Source of the DNA: an uncultured Lachnospiraceae bacterium
GTDB taxonomy: Bacteria; Bacillota; Clostridia; Lachnospirales; Lachnospiraceae
Direction of reading: 5' to 3'
NCBI GenBank assembly: GCA_947576945.1
Contig: CANPTH010000002.1
Span: 62,001 to 126,000, forward strand
Length of the DNA: 64,000 bases
Of the stretch, positions 8,581 through 57,695 are shown one piece after another. A program made the position numbers and the translations under genes. The first letter of the stretch is position 1. Every line of letters starts with the position of its first letter. Under the pieces are notes generated by a model. That model searched no databases. It saw only the letters and a list, made by a program, of their open reading frames with translations, and had not been told where the DNA came from.

Positions 8581-8661
8581 TCCCTTTGCAAACTCATTTC
8601 CTTTTCAAATCCGCTCCTGCATCATCCGCAGCGCAGACACTCCTGACTTCTGTCTTCCGCC

Positions 8662-8804
8662 AGCTATCCTTTGATTCCGCCCCTTGATACTCCCGCCGGC
8701 TTTCCTTTCGTTCCGCCCTTGACACTCCCGCCGGCTTTCCTTTCGTTCCGCCCCTTGATACTCCCGCCGGTTATCCTTTCGTTCCGCCCCTTGATACCCC
8801 GGCC
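8662..8804 (-). repeat. 36-bp tandem repeat at the 3' end of a permease gene
   Basis: Four head-to-tail units occupy 8662-8697, 8698-8732 (35 bp, one base lost), 8733-8768 and 8769-8804. The right-most unit is the real end of the permease gene and encodes GVSRGGTKG plus the stop. The others lie after the stop and repeat the same sequence, so the gene's own tail was duplicated three times towards the binding-protein gene. A degenerate partial fifth unit may lie at about 8638-8661. Confidence 0.9.
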
Positions 8805-9673
8805 ATAACCTTTTTCCGGAAGATCAGAAACAGCACGATCAGCGGCACGGAAATGACCACCACTGCCGCCATCATAGCCGGAATATTCTCCCGGCCGAAT
8901 CCGTTTTCCCGGATCTCCTGAATACCGTTGGACACCAGATAATAATTTTCGTCATCAGTGATCAGCCGCGGCCAGACGTAAGAGTTCCAGCACTCGATCA
9001 CTTTCAGAATGGTGATCGTGATCAAAGTCGGCTTCGAGATCGGAATCATCACCTTAAACAGATATTTCAAGTCGGAAGTCCCGTCCACCTTGGCCGCATA
9101 GTAAAGGCTGTCCGGTATCTGCTCGAAATTTTCCTTCAACAGATAAATATAGAAGACTGAGGTGACGGAGGGCAGGATCAGCCCCGGAAATGTATTGCGC
9201 ATCTCCAGATTGGTAATCGTGACGAAATTGGTGATGATCACCAGTTCGCTGGGAATCATCATCAGCGAGAGGAAAAGCACGAACAGCACATTTTTTCCCC
9301 GGAAGTCGAGTCTCGCGAAGGCGAAAGCCGCCAGCGTGATCACCGCCAGCATCAATGCCGTCGTCACCACGGTAAAAATCGTTGTATTGAGCAGATAGCG
9401 GCCCAGCGGCACCGCCGTAAACGCATCCGCGTAATTCTGCAGCGTAGGCGACAGGGTAAAAAACTTCGGAATGCTCTCCGCATTATAGGCGCTGTAACTC
9501 TTGACGGAAGTTAAGAGCATCCAGTAAAAAGGAAACAGCACGATCACCGCCCAGACTGCCAGCAGGAAATACGTGACCGCATTCGCCGTAGTTTTGCGGG
9601 CTTTGGCCGCCTTTTCTATTCTAATATAATCTCTGCCACTGTTCATATTGCTATAGTTTCTGCCACCACTCAT
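8771..9673 (-). CDS. Sugar ABC importer permease, MalG/UgpE type
   Basis: This 300-residue inner-membrane protein has six predicted helices, the first after a polar N-terminus (AVIVLFPFYWMLLTSVK). The cytoplasmic coupling loop is present as YYAAKVDGTSDLKYLFKVMIP, the EAA motif that docks on the ATPase. The C-terminal GVSRGGTKG is the normal ending for this subfamily. GGAG precedes the start. It lies between the MalF-type permease and the binding protein in one operon. The 3' end has been duplicated into a tandem repeat. Confidence 0.92.
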   Translation of the reverse strand: MSGGRNYSNMNSGRDYIRIEKAAKARKTTANAVTYFLLAVWAVIVLFPFYWMLLTSVKSYSAYNAESIPKFFTLSPTLQNYADAFTAVPLGRYLLNTTIFTVVTTALMLAVITLAAFAFARLDFRGKNVLFVLFLSLMMIPSELVIITNFVTITNLEMRNTFPGLILPSVTSVFYIYLLKENFEQIPDSLYYAAKVDGTSDLKYLFKVMIPISKPTLITITILKVIECWNSYVWPRLITDDENYYLVSNGIQEIRENGFGRENIPAMMAAVVVISVPLIVLFLIFRKKVMAGVSRGGTKG

Positions 9674-22292: not shown

Positions 22293-23393
22293 TCAGAAGA
22301 CTCGCTTATCCCGATTGCACTCTCTGATCACCTCAATCTCTTCTTCATCGTAAGGCGTAAAATCAGAATGAAAGATATCATGCATCCAAAGACTGGTATC
22401 GATATCCGGCAGCTTCTTGATAAATTCCCATACATAATTAAACTGTGCCTTGCCATTTACAAAGCCGAAGAAATAGCTGCCAATCTTCTCTTTCTTCCAA
22501 AGGGGCAGATGGGTCTGGATTAAGCTGCGGTAAGGGCGGTGCAGCCACTCCGTATTGATCAGCGGACGTCCGAATTCCTTTAACTTTGCGATATATATTC
22601 TGGCATGAGAATAGTCCCCGTAGAAGTGGAAGGAGATAATATCCGAAAGTTCGATGGCTGTACGTTCCACCTCTGCATAGATCCCGGGATTTTTCAGCCA
22701 GCCATAGGGATGGTCAGCGCCTGCACCCCATACATCGGCGGTCAAGGGCTGCATCACATCTTCCTCCCGCATCCAGCCAAATACCTTTGTCATCAACGGT
22801 ACTGACTTTTCCATGCGCTGGGAATTACCGGCTTCATTCCAAATATTCCAGATCAGAATACGGTCATCCCGGCCAAAAGTGCGTGCCATCTCCCGCACAT
22901 AAGCCTCCACCACCGGCTCCATTTCCGGTTCGTCAGTTATGTCATAACCAACAATATCACCATTCTGGGTATCCTCATCAAAGGGTGTCGCTGCTGTCCC
23001 GCCAAAATACCCGGGCACTGGTTCCGGCTGCGGCCCCAGGATTGGTTCCTGGTACTTTGCCTTAGCCACACAGCAGTCATTAAAAAGTATCGGCATCATA
23101 GTCATATGATATTTATCCAGCAGCGTCAGAAATTCTCCGAAGTTCTTCATAAAACTGTCATGCTGTACCCGCCATAAATAAAACGGAACAAAAAAGCGAA
23201 TACTGTTAAATCCCAGGCCAGCCGCCAATGCAATTTCTTTCGCAGCGTCACGAAAAGCATTTTCGTGGTCGTATTCCTGCAGCATCCAAACTGCGCCATC
23301 CATAGCGCCGCTGGGAATAAAATTAAATCCGGTGATCCAGGGGCGGGCTTTATACCAATCCCATATTTCTTCCTGCGTCCATTTTCTCTTCAT
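22293..23393 (-). CDS. Intracellular TIM-barrel glycoside hydrolase (clan GH-A, GH5/GH2-like)
   Basis: This 366-residue protein has no signal peptide. It begins with a short tryptophan-rich segment (WTQEEIWDWYKARPWITGFN) and then a TIM barrel. The acid/base is probably Glu187 in IWNIWNEAGN and the nucleophile Glu282 in PLINTEWLHRPY, the clan GH-A pattern of retaining enzymes. It is the last gene of the importer operon, so it probably cleaves the imported oligosaccharide. ATG 23393 follows GGAGG by 6 bases; the in-frame ATG at 23405 lies inside a repeat. Automatic tools often call such proteins xylanases, but the sequence does not establish that. Confidence 0.85.
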   Translation of the reverse strand: MKRKWTQEEIWDWYKARPWITGFNFIPSGAMDGAVWMLQEYDHENAFRDAAKEIALAAGLGFNSIRFFVPFYLWRVQHDSFMKNFGEFLTLLDKYHMTMMPILFNDCCVAKAKYQEPILGPQPEPVPGYFGGTAATPFDEDTQNGDIVGYDITDEPEMEPVVEAYVREMARTFGRDDRILIWNIWNEAGNSQRMEKSVPLMTKVFGWMREEDVMQPLTADVWGAGADHPYGWLKNPGIYAEVERTAIELSDIISFHFYGDYSHARIYIAKLKEFGRPLINTEWLHRPYRSLIQTHLPLWKKEKIGSYFFGFVNGKAQFNYVWEFIKKLPDIDTSLWMHDIFHSDFTPYDEEEIEVIRECNRDKRVF

Positions 23394-23403
23394 TTTTACC
23401 TCC

Positions 23404-23516
23404 ATGCCGAAGCGTTTTACGCTGAGGACGCGAGCAGAATTTCAGAGTTTTCCGAAGGAATACTCCGATTTTGCCCTGCGATCAATAGAATTTGTGACGC
23501 TTCTGCACAAATCCCA
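23404..23516 (-). repeat. Multi-hairpin dispersed element, variant copy
   Basis: On the minus strand this copy ends ACGCTTCGG just before the ribosome-binding site of the 22293 gene. It carries the GCGT/ACGC hairpin, a second hairpin expanded to GGAGTATTCC-UUCG-type-GGAAAACTC, and the GATTTGTG/CACAAATTC hairpin. The fourth hairpin found in the copies at 34510 and 57398 is missing. Confidence 0.8.
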
Positions 23517-23565
23517 CTGCTAAAATTTTTGGATTTTGAAAACATATACCGACAGCATACGTCTC

Positions 23566-34487: not shown

Positions 34488-34509
34488 ACCGTACTTTCCT
34501 CCATAATTT

Positions 34510-34643
34510 TCTCCATTCCGAAGCGCTTTGCGCTGAGGACGCGAGCAGAATTTCAGATTCTGCTCTGCGATCAAGGAGTTTGTGACGCTTCGGCACAAAC
34601 TCTTGGTTGAATAAATTGCTCATCAGAGAATTTATTCAACCTT
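34510..34643 (-). repeat. Multi-hairpin dispersed element, full copy
   Basis: On the minus strand in order: GTTGAATAAATT/AATTTATTCAAC, GAGTTTGTG/CACAAACTC, GCAGAAT/ATTCTGC and GCGC/GCGC (with CAAA or TTT loop), ending at the ribosome-binding region of the DUF554 gene. Relative to the 57398 copy several paired positions changed together (A-T to G-C and T-A to C-G), which supports real base pairing. Confidence 0.88.
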
Positions 34644-55735: not shown

Positions 55736-57385
55736 CTAATCCGTGTCTTCCACACGCCGATCCAGTTCTCTCTGCATTTCTTCAAAAAACACTTCCGGAT
55801 GGCATGCACTGTACGCTTCCATATACTGTTCCCACATAGATTCAAAATCCTCGGCCAGAACAACCCGTGGCAGATATGTCTGCTTAACTTCTTCCATCGC
55901 CTTGTAGACTCTTCCGGCAGGCACGTCCTGTGTCAGCCGCTTTGCATGGGAATACATCGGATACCAGGCCCCTGGCTGTTCATTACTGCCAAGCATATCC
56001 ACATAATTCCTGCATCCATACGCCGCCAGGCATGCCCGCACATCCTCCGGCAGGGCTGCATAGAACTCTTCCGGCTGAAATTCGGCCGAAAAGGCATTGA
56101 TCCCGTCAGCTGCCATCCCTTCCAGCCTTGGAAAATAAGAATAATAGCAAAAGTGCCGTCTCAAATAGGCGCCGTCCCGTGCACGCGCGCGTTGCTCCGG
56201 TGTTTTATAATAAATGCCGCTTTCATCCTTATGATAATCGACATCCTCCACACCCCAGAACCGCAGTTTCATCACCCTTTCATCCAAGAGATCGTTGATA
56301 AACCACATGGCGCCTTTCACATCTTTACAACTTACCGTAATGGAGATTCCTTCCGCTGTGTCAATGTCATTTCCCCGTTTTGTATGCCACTGATTCTTTA
56401 CGCCCTTTTCCATGACGATCGGCAGTGGAACATAACCGCAGCCTTCCTCCGCTTTCCGGCTCAGCGCGTCTCCCACATCGTAGGCGAACTGCCACCACTG
56501 CTCCACCATACCCAGCACCCGTCCGGAAGCCAGTATTTCGAGATATTCCTCATAACTTTGGGTGAAAGATTCCGGAGCGATCATCCCTGCATGAAACTCC
56601 TGATTTAAAAGGGCAAAATATGCTTTCGCCGTTTCTGTCACATTATAATCCATGACCGTCAGTGTGTCCGGATCTACCGTACAGCACCCGTCATTCGGAT
56701 AGCCGGCCAGAAACTGCGGCGGATTTTCCAGACAGAAATAACGCCAGTCATCGCACAGGAGCATGAAAGGAATATTGCTCTCTCCGTCAGCCATGCAGGG
56801 ATTTTCTTTCATATAAGCCTCGATCAAAGAAAAGTATTCCTGCACTGTAGTAATCTGTGGGTATCCTGCCCATTTTAAAACACGGGTCTGTATCCAGAAT
56901 GCTTCCCCTTCATGCAACGCCTCCGCTCCTTCCCTGTGAACGACATTGAACTGTGGAATCCAGTAAATATGCCCGTCCTCCTGCCTGAGCTGATCCCAGA
57001 CATCCTCCTCCAGATAACCACGGATATTCGGATATGCATCCCAGTATTCATCAATGGGGAGCAGCGCTCCGGCCTCATAGAGTGCAGCGCTGCCGGAAAT
57101 AAAATCCGGATACTCTCCTCCCGCAATGCAGGAAGCAATGGCAGCATCCGCCGTCTGTCCTGACAGCCAGATTTCCCGGCATTTTGCCCCGGTCAGTTCC
57201 GCAATTTTTTCCATGATCTCATTGTCATCCTCCGGCGAAATGCCGGGTACAGTGAAAAACGCTGTGTATTCTCTGTATTCCGGCTTCTTTACCCTCAAAT
57301 CGTATCCCGTATATCTGCTCGCAAAAAAAACAACAAAAAAGCATGCCGCCAACAGCAGCATACATTCCATCAACCTTTTTTTCAT
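55736..57385 (-). CDS. Second substrate-binding protein of the importer operon, membrane-anchored
   Basis: This 549-residue protein is a paralogue of the 59745-61460 binding protein along its length (GEYPDFISGSAALYEAGALL, DGHIYWIPQFN, ILASGRVLGMVEQWWQFAYD). Its N-terminus is different: MKKRLMECMLLLAACFFVVF contains a lipobox-like LAAC but then more hydrophobic residues, so it probably forms an uncleaved membrane anchor. GGAGG lies before ATG 57385. It is fourth in the operon, after a gap filled by two structured repeats. It may present a different ligand or act as a sensor; the role is unknown. Confidence 0.88.
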   Translation of the reverse strand: MKKRLMECMLLLAACFFVVFFASRYTGYDLRVKKPEYREYTAFFTVPGISPEDDNEIMEKIAELTGAKCREIWLSGQTADAAIASCIAGGEYPDFISGSAALYEAGALLPIDEYWDAYPNIRGYLEEDVWDQLRQEDGHIYWIPQFNVVHREGAEALHEGEAFWIQTRVLKWAGYPQITTVQEYFSLIEAYMKENPCMADGESNIPFMLLCDDWRYFCLENPPQFLAGYPNDGCCTVDPDTLTVMDYNVTETAKAYFALLNQEFHAGMIAPESFTQSYEEYLEILASGRVLGMVEQWWQFAYDVGDALSRKAEEGCGYVPLPIVMEKGVKNQWHTKRGNDIDTAEGISITVSCKDVKGAMWFINDLLDERVMKLRFWGVEDVDYHKDESGIYYKTPEQRARARDGAYLRRHFCYYSYFPRLEGMAADGINAFSAEFQPEEFYAALPEDVRACLAAYGCRNYVDMLGSNEQPGAWYPMYSHAKRLTQDVPAGRVYKAMEEVKQTYLPRVVLAEDFESMWEQYMEAYSACHPEVFFEEMQRELDRRVEDTD

Positions 57386-57397
57386 TCCTTCCTCCAT

Positions 57398-57525
57398 TCC
57401 GAAGCGTTTTACGCTGAGGCCGCGAGCAGAATTTCAAATTCTGCTCTGCGATCAACAGAATTTGTGACGCTTCTGCACAAATTCTTGGTTGAATAAATTG
57501 CTCATCAGAGAATTTATTCAACCTT
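57398..57525 (-). repeat. Multi-hairpin dispersed element, full copy
   Basis: On the minus strand four hairpins follow one another: GTTGAATAAATT/AATTTATTCAAC, GAATTTGTG/CACAAATTC, GCAGAATTT/AAATTCTGC and GCGT/ACGC, ending at CTTCGGAATGGAGG, the ribosome-binding site of the second binding protein gene. Other copies are at 34510-34643 and 23404-23516. Confidence 0.9.
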
Positions 57526-57546
57526 TAGACCTCGCTTCCTGATATA

Positions 57547-57649
57547 TATAGTAAACGACATAACAAATTTCTGTTTCCGGCTCTTGCAGGAGCCATATAC
57601 GGCAGCTCCTGCAAGGTCGAATACGAAATTTCTAATGTCGTTAACTATA
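57547..57649. repeat. 103-bp near-perfect palindrome
   Basis: TATAGTAAACGACAT (57547-57561) mirrors ATGTCGTTAACTATA (57635-57649). AAATTTC/GAAATTT and CTTGCAGGAGC/GCTCCTGCAAG continue the stem inwards. The whole can fold as one long hairpin, in DNA or RNA. It fills the gap between the permease gene and the multi-hairpin element. Confidence 0.85.
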
Positions 57650-57695
57650 GGATACACTATTTTGGCTTCTTCCGCCAGAAAAACTCATTTCGCTT

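Follow-up and report, generated by a model that had tools for sequence, protein, structure and literature searches.

Bacterial MITEs, such as RUP, ERIC and Correia, are miniature, non-coding sequences that occur as many near-identical copies, with empty sites in relatives, and the element described here resembles them in being short, non-coding, multi-copy and mobile. It differs from MITEs, however, in the absence of terminal inverted repeats and of any constant target duplication seen, in its single orientation relative to genes, and in bringing a replacement Shine-Dalgarno sequence (SD); the words 'ribosome' and 'Shine' do not appear in the main text, as far as accessible, of a 2024 MITE review (PMC10969869). 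According to the accessible part of the same review, nearly half of the first reported Rickettsia palindromic elements (RPEs) were in-frame insertions inside genes. RPEs and the present element are both palindromic and selfish and occupy a niche that spares the host gene, whereas the present element sits upstream of the start codon, and 1-nt indels interrupt its own frame.

REP/REPIN sequences and their RAYTs, as described in the accessible portions of PMC3686654 and PMC6006769, provide a further comparison, these repeats also being short, palindromic, high-copy, intergenic and non-coding, with a possible hairpin bulge and a short G-rich motif. In contrast to REP/REPIN, the present element is without a GTAG/GTGG foot, has 5' ends AAGG or TAGTG that often follow the target SD, is not tracked by a Y1 gene, and constitutes a unit of about 130 nt, with four hairpins and a pseudoknot, located between SD and start codon. 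A pseudoknot next to the SD is likewise found in the preQ1 and SAM/SAH riboswitches, as far as the accessible portions of their descriptions go, yet the present element has no Rfam match, precedes unrelated genes and occurs in more than 100 copies in one genome. A literature search, in which subscription journals were thinly covered, yielded no account of such an element, which is weak evidence.

The window, i.e. the whole 64,000-nt stretch of the uncultured Lachnospiraceae genome analysed here, was shown to contain three copies (57398, 34510 and 23404), all on the minus (gene) strand and at the places where the initial annotation had put them. A family covariance model (R1), built from 17 copies that include these three, re-found them at 57391-57525 (167 bits), 34510-34643 (160 bits) and 23399-23527 (84 bits), and a repeat finder run over the whole window reported them as families D2, D4 and D7. 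Toward the gene, 5' to 3', the layout is AAGG, hairpin 4, hairpin 3, hairpin 2, the hairpin 1 region, CTTCGGNATGGAG(G/A), 5 nt and ATG, each window copy having the 3' end ...CTTCGGNATGGAG(G/A) on the minus strand, followed after 5 nt by a start-like ATG. The features are as follows.

57391..57525, minus strand: full-length copy of about 135 nt, comprising 5' AAGG, four hairpins and 3' GGAGG
57487..57523, minus strand: hairpin 4, the 5'-most hairpin, with a TGAT tetraloop and a bulged C on its 3' side (helix 1; both sides change in 16 of 16 pairs)
57458..57484, minus strand: hairpin 3, whose loop GAAGCGT (57473-57467) is complementary to the ACGCTTC before the SD (read from the sequence)
57421..57450, minus strand: hairpin 2 (helix 3; both sides change in 12 of 12 pairs)
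57401..57407, minus strand: strand R (ACGCTTC), which can pair either with the loop of hairpin 3 or, as hairpin 1, with its own 5' arm
57391..57395, minus strand: element-supplied GGAGG, now the SD of the gene with ATG at 57385 (by sequence and spacing statistics)
34510..34643, minus strand: full-length copy upstream of the DUF554 gene (ATG 34487-34485)
34498..34502, minus strand: SD native to the DUF554 gene (GGAGG), preserved intact on the downstream side of the element (by comparison with empty locus L200)
23399..23513, minus strand: 5'-truncated copy without hairpin 4, in which hairpin 2 is long and capped by TTCG; the gene with ATG at 23393 has the GGAGG of this copy as its SD

Gene-strand folding energies were below those of dinucleotide shuffles for all three copies (z of -7.8, -6.1 and -3.7). 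The chain of hairpins that the initial annotation had described is common to them, except that the 23404 copy, in which similarity begins near 23512, is without the first (5') hairpin. The compensatory changes reported between the other two copies are present in the sequence (GCGT/ACGC versus GCGC/GCGC, and GAATTTGTG/CACAAATTC versus GAGTTTGTG/CACAAACTC), as is the longer, TTCG-capped second hairpin of the 23404 copy. The claim that each copy directly precedes a gene start does not hold for 34510, where the ATG 5 nt past the element opens 16 codons only and the DUF554 gene has its own SD downstream. The likely real starts next to the 57398 and 23404 copies are 57385 and 23393, the longest-ORF starts (57397 and 23405) falling inside the element; in practical terms, the ATG within AATGGAGG / CATGGAGG misleads a longest-ORF caller into placing the starts of two of the three window genes too far upstream. 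A location of the 57398 and 23404 copies inside a polycistronic message is plausible, because the next upstream gene, encoding a transporter membrane component, is on the same strand.

Application of the covariance model to relatives revealed that the hairpins covary. In 86 distinct rows from relatives (A3), a set that includes a few edge and reverse-strand matches and whose alignment, having been fitted to the model, is biased in its favour, pairing was seen in 96.3 % of 3628 cells, compared with 76.1 % for shuffled and 30.7-45.1 % for slid partners, and both sides change in 43 of 46 pairs. An additional pairing, newly found here, connects the hairpin-3 loop with a strand ending 3-5 nt before the SD, the loop/strand variants being CCGAAGCG/CGCTTCGG, CCGGAGCG/CGCTCCGG, CCGCAGGCG/CGYCTGCGG and TTTCTGAGCGA/TCGCTCAGAAA. 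This pairing was parsed in 127 of 163 copies, consisting of 108 own copies and 55 chosen from 87 relatives' matches, mostly diverged. Its mean contiguous Watson-Crick length over 74 distinct pairs was 6.46, compared with 4.96 for non-cognate combinations, and the cognate value was reached in none of 1000 permutations, which ignore relatedness. On the fixed alignment, where loop-length variants are misaligned, 85.8 % was paired, compared with 82.7 % for shuffled and 14-50 % for slid partners, and two of five measures of the loop pairing were not significant (138/500 and 82/500).

Hairpin 1 competes with the loop for the same strand and represents the least regular helix, with 86.5 % of cells paired. 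To describe it as unconserved would nevertheless be too strong, as all five of its inner pairs change on both sides, and its mean contiguous length (3.94, compared with 3.68 when permuted) is a small gain that was reached in none of 1000 permutations, again ignoring relatedness; the loop pairing gains more over permutation than hairpin 1. Overall, the gene strand has more G.U pairs than A.C mismatches in two sets (156:102 and 84:57); the excess is clear in hairpins 4 and 3, whereas hairpin 2 shows it in one of the sets and hairpin 1 in none. This excess mildly favours a structure that acts on the gene-sense strand, either as RNA or as single-stranded DNA.

A covariance-model search of the 4.37-Mb host draft identified at least 145 matches at E≤1 and at least 131 at E≤1e-3, this census being a lower bound as scoring covered the best 150 of 2792 candidates. 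A BLAST search of the same draft with one copy returned many copies that are 93-98 % identical among the best 40 of 187 candidates scored. From 120 matches, 108 own copies were laid out and oriented with their flanks, the 12 left out being eight partial matches on the opposite strand, three cut by contig ends and one weak match on the same strand (L141:1317-1457). Their hairpins were observed to be alternative modules in various combinations, with at least three types of hairpin 4, two of hairpin 3, three of hairpin 2 and two of hairpin 1 distinguished by eye; such mosaics would come from recombination between copies. At least 12 head-to-tail pairs are separated by 1-3 nt (ten of them by 1 nt), the next copy beginning just past the 3' GGAGG of the preceding one, and locus L197 of genome G158 looks like a collapsed form of the own tandem L115.

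Shortened forms were also encountered. At three own sites an 83-85-nt form was read in which hairpin 4 is joined to the 3' end; own copy L142 retains the first bases and, compared with G158, resembles an internal deletion. Three G158 sites (L278, L280 and L282) carry a mini form of about 29 nt, AAGAGTTTGTGRYGCTTCGGAATGGAGG (with variants), and even these precede start codons; at L278 a remnant of another copy lies upstream of the mini form. These deletion derivatives, in which the pseudoknot loop is missing, indicate that most of the hairpin core is dispensable. The hairpin-4 test was failed by 31 of the 108 own copies, including L128, L130 and part of L148, where hairpin 4 is diverged or displaced, so that about 28-31 copies are without it; 3'-end shortening was seen in none of the copies laid out, and the SD is degraded in L061, L133 and L149. 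The loss of hairpin 4 with intact 3' ends could be a clue to the mechanism or merely reflect selection for the SD.

A conserved leader protein was considered, as in many full-length copies a TTG or GTG about 4-7 nt past the upstream SD opens a frame into the element; it was ruled out by 1-nt indels that break this frame in otherwise intact copies, and three leader translations gave no Pfam match and a single, chance-level NCBIfam match (E 0.17). The own-genome census, with the best 150 of 2792 candidates scored, contained no left-end-only copy, as would mark a larger autonomous version, except at contig edges, and the frames between successive copies at three places appeared ordinary by eye.

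The position of the element relative to genes was found to be highly regular. Exactly 5 nt past the 3' end, 92 of the 108 own copies have an ATG, GTG or TTG (ATG in 74), nine have one at exactly 6 nt, and each other distance from 2 to 11 nt is represented by zero to three copies. A start codon within 2-15 nt, observed for 105 of 108 copies, is weak evidence, being common by chance in a 14-nt stretch, and the exact 5-nt peak is therefore the informative part. Native GGAGG genes without the element at the same loci have a 5-nt spacing in 7 of 54 cases, with a mode of 7 (simple caller). The 5 nt past the element read NAAAN, with A at positions 2, 3 and 4 in 87, 88 and 80, respectively, of the 95 copies not directly followed by another copy. 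The longest frame comprises at least 40 codons for 75 of 108 copies and fewer than 40 for 33, which include upstream array members as well as short frames, for example the dead start codons (ATGTAA) that follow the copies in L012, L028 and L120.

On the other side of the element, an SD-like string within 14 nt upstream was present in 52 of the 77 copies that pass the hairpin-4 test (control offsets: 0, 6, 0, 5 and 2 of 75-77), 27 of these 52 adjoining the 3' end of another copy or a relic. For full-length copies without a preceding copy, the corresponding figure was 25 of 49 (five control offsets: 0, 3, 0, 2 and 1 of 48-49), the motif used finding no upstream SD in the other 24. About half of the single full-length copies thus retain the original SD on their left, with a left junction that lies 0-3 nt past this SD and is not strictly fixed.

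Comparison with relatives identified the corresponding empty sites. At the 34510 site, the own sequence is GAGAGATTTGAACAGGTTAT-element-AAATTATGGAGGAAAGTACGGTATGCC, compared with GAGAGATTTGAACAGGATATACTGATGGAGGAAAGTACGGTATGCC in relative L200, and the model (E≤0.01) found this copy in none of 46 homologous loci from Lachnospiraceae and other Firmicutes. The cleanest pair is own L017 (GCAGGAGGGTG-element..GGAGGT-AAAGATGACAG) and L252 (GCAGGAGGGTGAAAGATGACAG), in which the native GCAGGAGGGTG-AAAGATG, as present in the congener, has become GCAGGAGGGTG-element...GGAGGT-AAAGATG, with nothing lost and no long target duplication. The pair L095/L250 (GGAGGA-element..GGAGGG-AAAAGATG compared with GGAGGAAAAGATG) and the pairs L101/L276+L271, L099/L160 and L008/L062 agree, and a reverse case was observed in which G158 is filled and own L028 is empty (70 % identity, perhaps a paralogue). 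In five congeners, 66 orthologous places were found, 27 of 42 queried own sites having an orthologous match; 60 of these places were scored as empty and six as filled by regular expression, about four of the 60 being doubtful. Among the 60, L278 was miscalled and holds degenerate mini copies, and L266, L270 and L292 contain strings resembling the element's 3' end, possible relics. At proC, the element is present in three species and the upstream DNA differs between them.

At sites with an empty relative, copies are gene-sense and are placed after the SD and before the start codon, as a rule immediately 5' of AAAN-ATG, and through the 3' GGAGG(N) the gene regains an SD after insertion, usually 5 nt from the start. 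The placement rule is 'after the SD, before an A-run' and not a fixed distance from the ATG, as in L004 the spacing is 8 nt natively, in two relatives, and also 8 nt after insertion. Copies in the host group begin with (A)AAGG-TTG and have GGAGGN/AAAN-ATG as right joint; several other genera and one second-family genome of the order have TAGT-GTG as 5' end and a right joint that, although variable, resembles GGAG(A/G)(W)TAGT-ATG. In each group, the spacer preceding the gene thus looks like the 5' border of the element itself, suggesting that target choice may depend on resemblance to the element's joint. Inspection of the aligned ends showed no terminal inverted repeats (5' AAGGTTG and 3' CGGAATGGAGG). 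No constant-length target duplication was seen at the aligned joints, L017/L252 and L095/L250 having none beyond a few A, so that a microduplication of A's is possible; L002, L096 and L126 have the same GGAG-type string on both sides of the element.

Matches were obtained, the host included, in at least 39 of 60 genomes of the genus and at least 20 of 150 of the family (E≤1e-3), and in at least 21 of 392 of the order, three of them from another family, and at least 1 of 398 in a phylum sample, the host only (E≤1e-5). Among these sampled genomes the element appears only in the host's order; with the best 8-55 candidates scored per genome under stricter filters, copy numbers are minima and low-copy genomes may be missed. 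Rfam gave no match above gathering score in the window and two far below it at a relaxed threshold, and a plasmid collection gave no match. A phage collection contained two unannotated 'Bacteriophage sp.' records from faeces with 78-79 % identity over 63 % of the query, and an exact own-type 3' end was found in none of the viral contigs.

These data establish a dispersed, recently mobile, structured element that inserts in sense orientation between SD and start codon and restores the SD. Of the two options offered by the initial annotation, that of a mobile element targeting such sites is borne out by the high copy number, with near-identical copies next to genes that are unrelated, by empty orthologous sites, arrays of tandem copies and deletion derivatives, and by a position and orientation tied to SD and start codon. 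The other option, an RNA controlling translation, stability or processing of the next gene, may apply as well, the structure being conserved with strong covariation, but the downstream genes are unrelated. Where an absence of covariation and random orientation and placement had been named as telling against that annotation, strong covariation, sense orientation and an SD-linked position were found. The preferred reading, to which we assign a probability of roughly 0.72, is that of a miniature, non-coding mobile element homing on sites of translation initiation, a view that the arrays, deletion derivatives and mosaics fit. The element would move as a folded single strand, with DNA more likely than RNA, recognized by its hairpins, and a putative recombinase acting in trans would connect SD-like target sites with the GGAGG-(N)-AAGG ends. 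As the SD is restored, such an insertion would be nearly neutral and would let copies build up to more than 100.

Insertion sites of mobile DNA usually mark where damage is tolerated. The site tolerated here is among the most constrained upstream of a gene, and insertion is tolerated because the element carries the part that it interrupts; genes with an insertion probably stay readable, as a replacement ribosome-binding site is brought along. If true, this would represent a new safe niche for selfish DNA, would supply abundant structured leaders of about 130 nt whose effect on translation is measurable within one genome, and would point to a putative site-specific mobilizing enzyme. A more far-reaching version, in which a new kind of mobile element has its folded strand moved by a recombinase outside the Y1, IS110 and RT groups, uses the SD/start region as target by matching its own GGAGG joint, evades selection by leaving a working SD behind and positions the cleavage site by its pseudoknot, is a tentative proposal that we hold at less than even odds.

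Among the alternatives, a cis-acting regulatory RNA under selection, whose fold and pseudoknot at the SD control translation or stability and which spread by its usefulness, would account for the strong covariation, including that of hairpin 1 by the SD (5/5 pairs changing on both sides), for the G.U excess on the gene strand in hairpins 3 and 4, for the sense orientation adjoining the SD and for the filled proC site in three species. We consider it unlikely, however, given that the downstream genes are unrelated, that most orthologous places examined are empty, that some copies precede no long frame (<40 codons in 33/108, arrays included), that the pseudoknot loop is missing from deletion derivatives, and that hairpin 1 is the least regular helix.

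Candidate mobilizers were compared between 14 element-rich and seven no-match genomes, which were few, hand-picked and in several cases incomplete, the no-match status resting on the stricter search with best-scoring candidates only. Oriented insertion and precise joints without duplication are features of IS200/IS605. An element of REP/IS200-IS605 type, mobilized in single-stranded DNA form by a Y1 (HUH) transposase, would share these with the present copies, along with a bulged hairpin and a short fixed motif beside the end, as described in the accessible portions of PMC6006769 and PMC3686654. The REP tetranucleotide GTAG/GTGG is, however, missing at the hairpin foot, and Y1_Tnp is not associated with the element, being present in 7/14 element-rich and 3/7 no-match genomes; the host draft (94 % complete) has no PF01797 match, and Y1_Tnp is also absent from G158, G155, G151, G163, G094 and G130. 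This origin is hence also improbable.

A SINE-like retroelement, in which an RNA ending in GGAGG is reverse-transcribed at the target SD, would produce 5'-truncated copies with intact 3' ends, consistent with the 31 of 108 copies that fail the hairpin-4 test (the diverged or displaced cases L128, L130 and part of L148 included) and with the complementarity of the element's 3' end to the opposite strand of the target. Against this, truncation can be later deletion, as own L142 compared with G158 illustrates, and RVT_1 does not track the element (7/14 element-rich and 3/7 no-match genomes), with no reverse transcriptase in G158, G155, G151 and G094, among others. The host's only PF00078 match (L178; G000:C20:59774-60376) is a 369-aa frame with YMDD at a contig edge, adjoined by small phage-like frames, and because of these neighbours the host's single RT is possibly prophage-borne. 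We regard this alternative as quite unlikely. IS110 likewise showed no association, with matches above cut-off in 8/14 element-rich genomes (G130 weak) and 4/7 no-match genomes; the host has two full-length IS110 transposases, G155 and G151 have none of Y1, RVT_1 and IS110 over the cut-offs, and G094, of these three, shows just an IS110 match below the cut-off, within a frame of 1412 residues that is unlikely to be IS110. Spread without dedicated mobility, through homologous recombination and duplication via GGAGG-rich ends, would suit the mosaic modules and the array apparently collapsed by crossover (own L115 and G158 L197), but is very improbable, as homology with the empty targets amounts to about 5-10 nt at unrelated loci and the joints are precise nonetheless.

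Several further sequences were noted in the course of this analysis. In Rfam, five relatives' loci matched only a separate c-di-GMP-I riboswitch, located near an element copy in a relative (L066:1114-1215). L019 and L091, which are unrelated sites, both have TAAATGTGAT after the 3' GGAGG, so that some 3' flank may have been carried along. Within the window, a second palindromic sequence at 57535-57660, CTTGCAGGAGCTGCCGTATATGGCTCCTGCAAGAGCCGG with AGAAATTT/ACGACAT arms on either side, is located a short distance upstream of the 57398 copy, between it and its upstream gene. A stretch similar to this palindrome, downstream of L011 (query about 711-777), matches at a dozen places in four congeners, and because of this recurrence the palindrome looks like another dispersed repeat family. 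A tandem repeat with a period of about 36 nt is located at 8654-8825.
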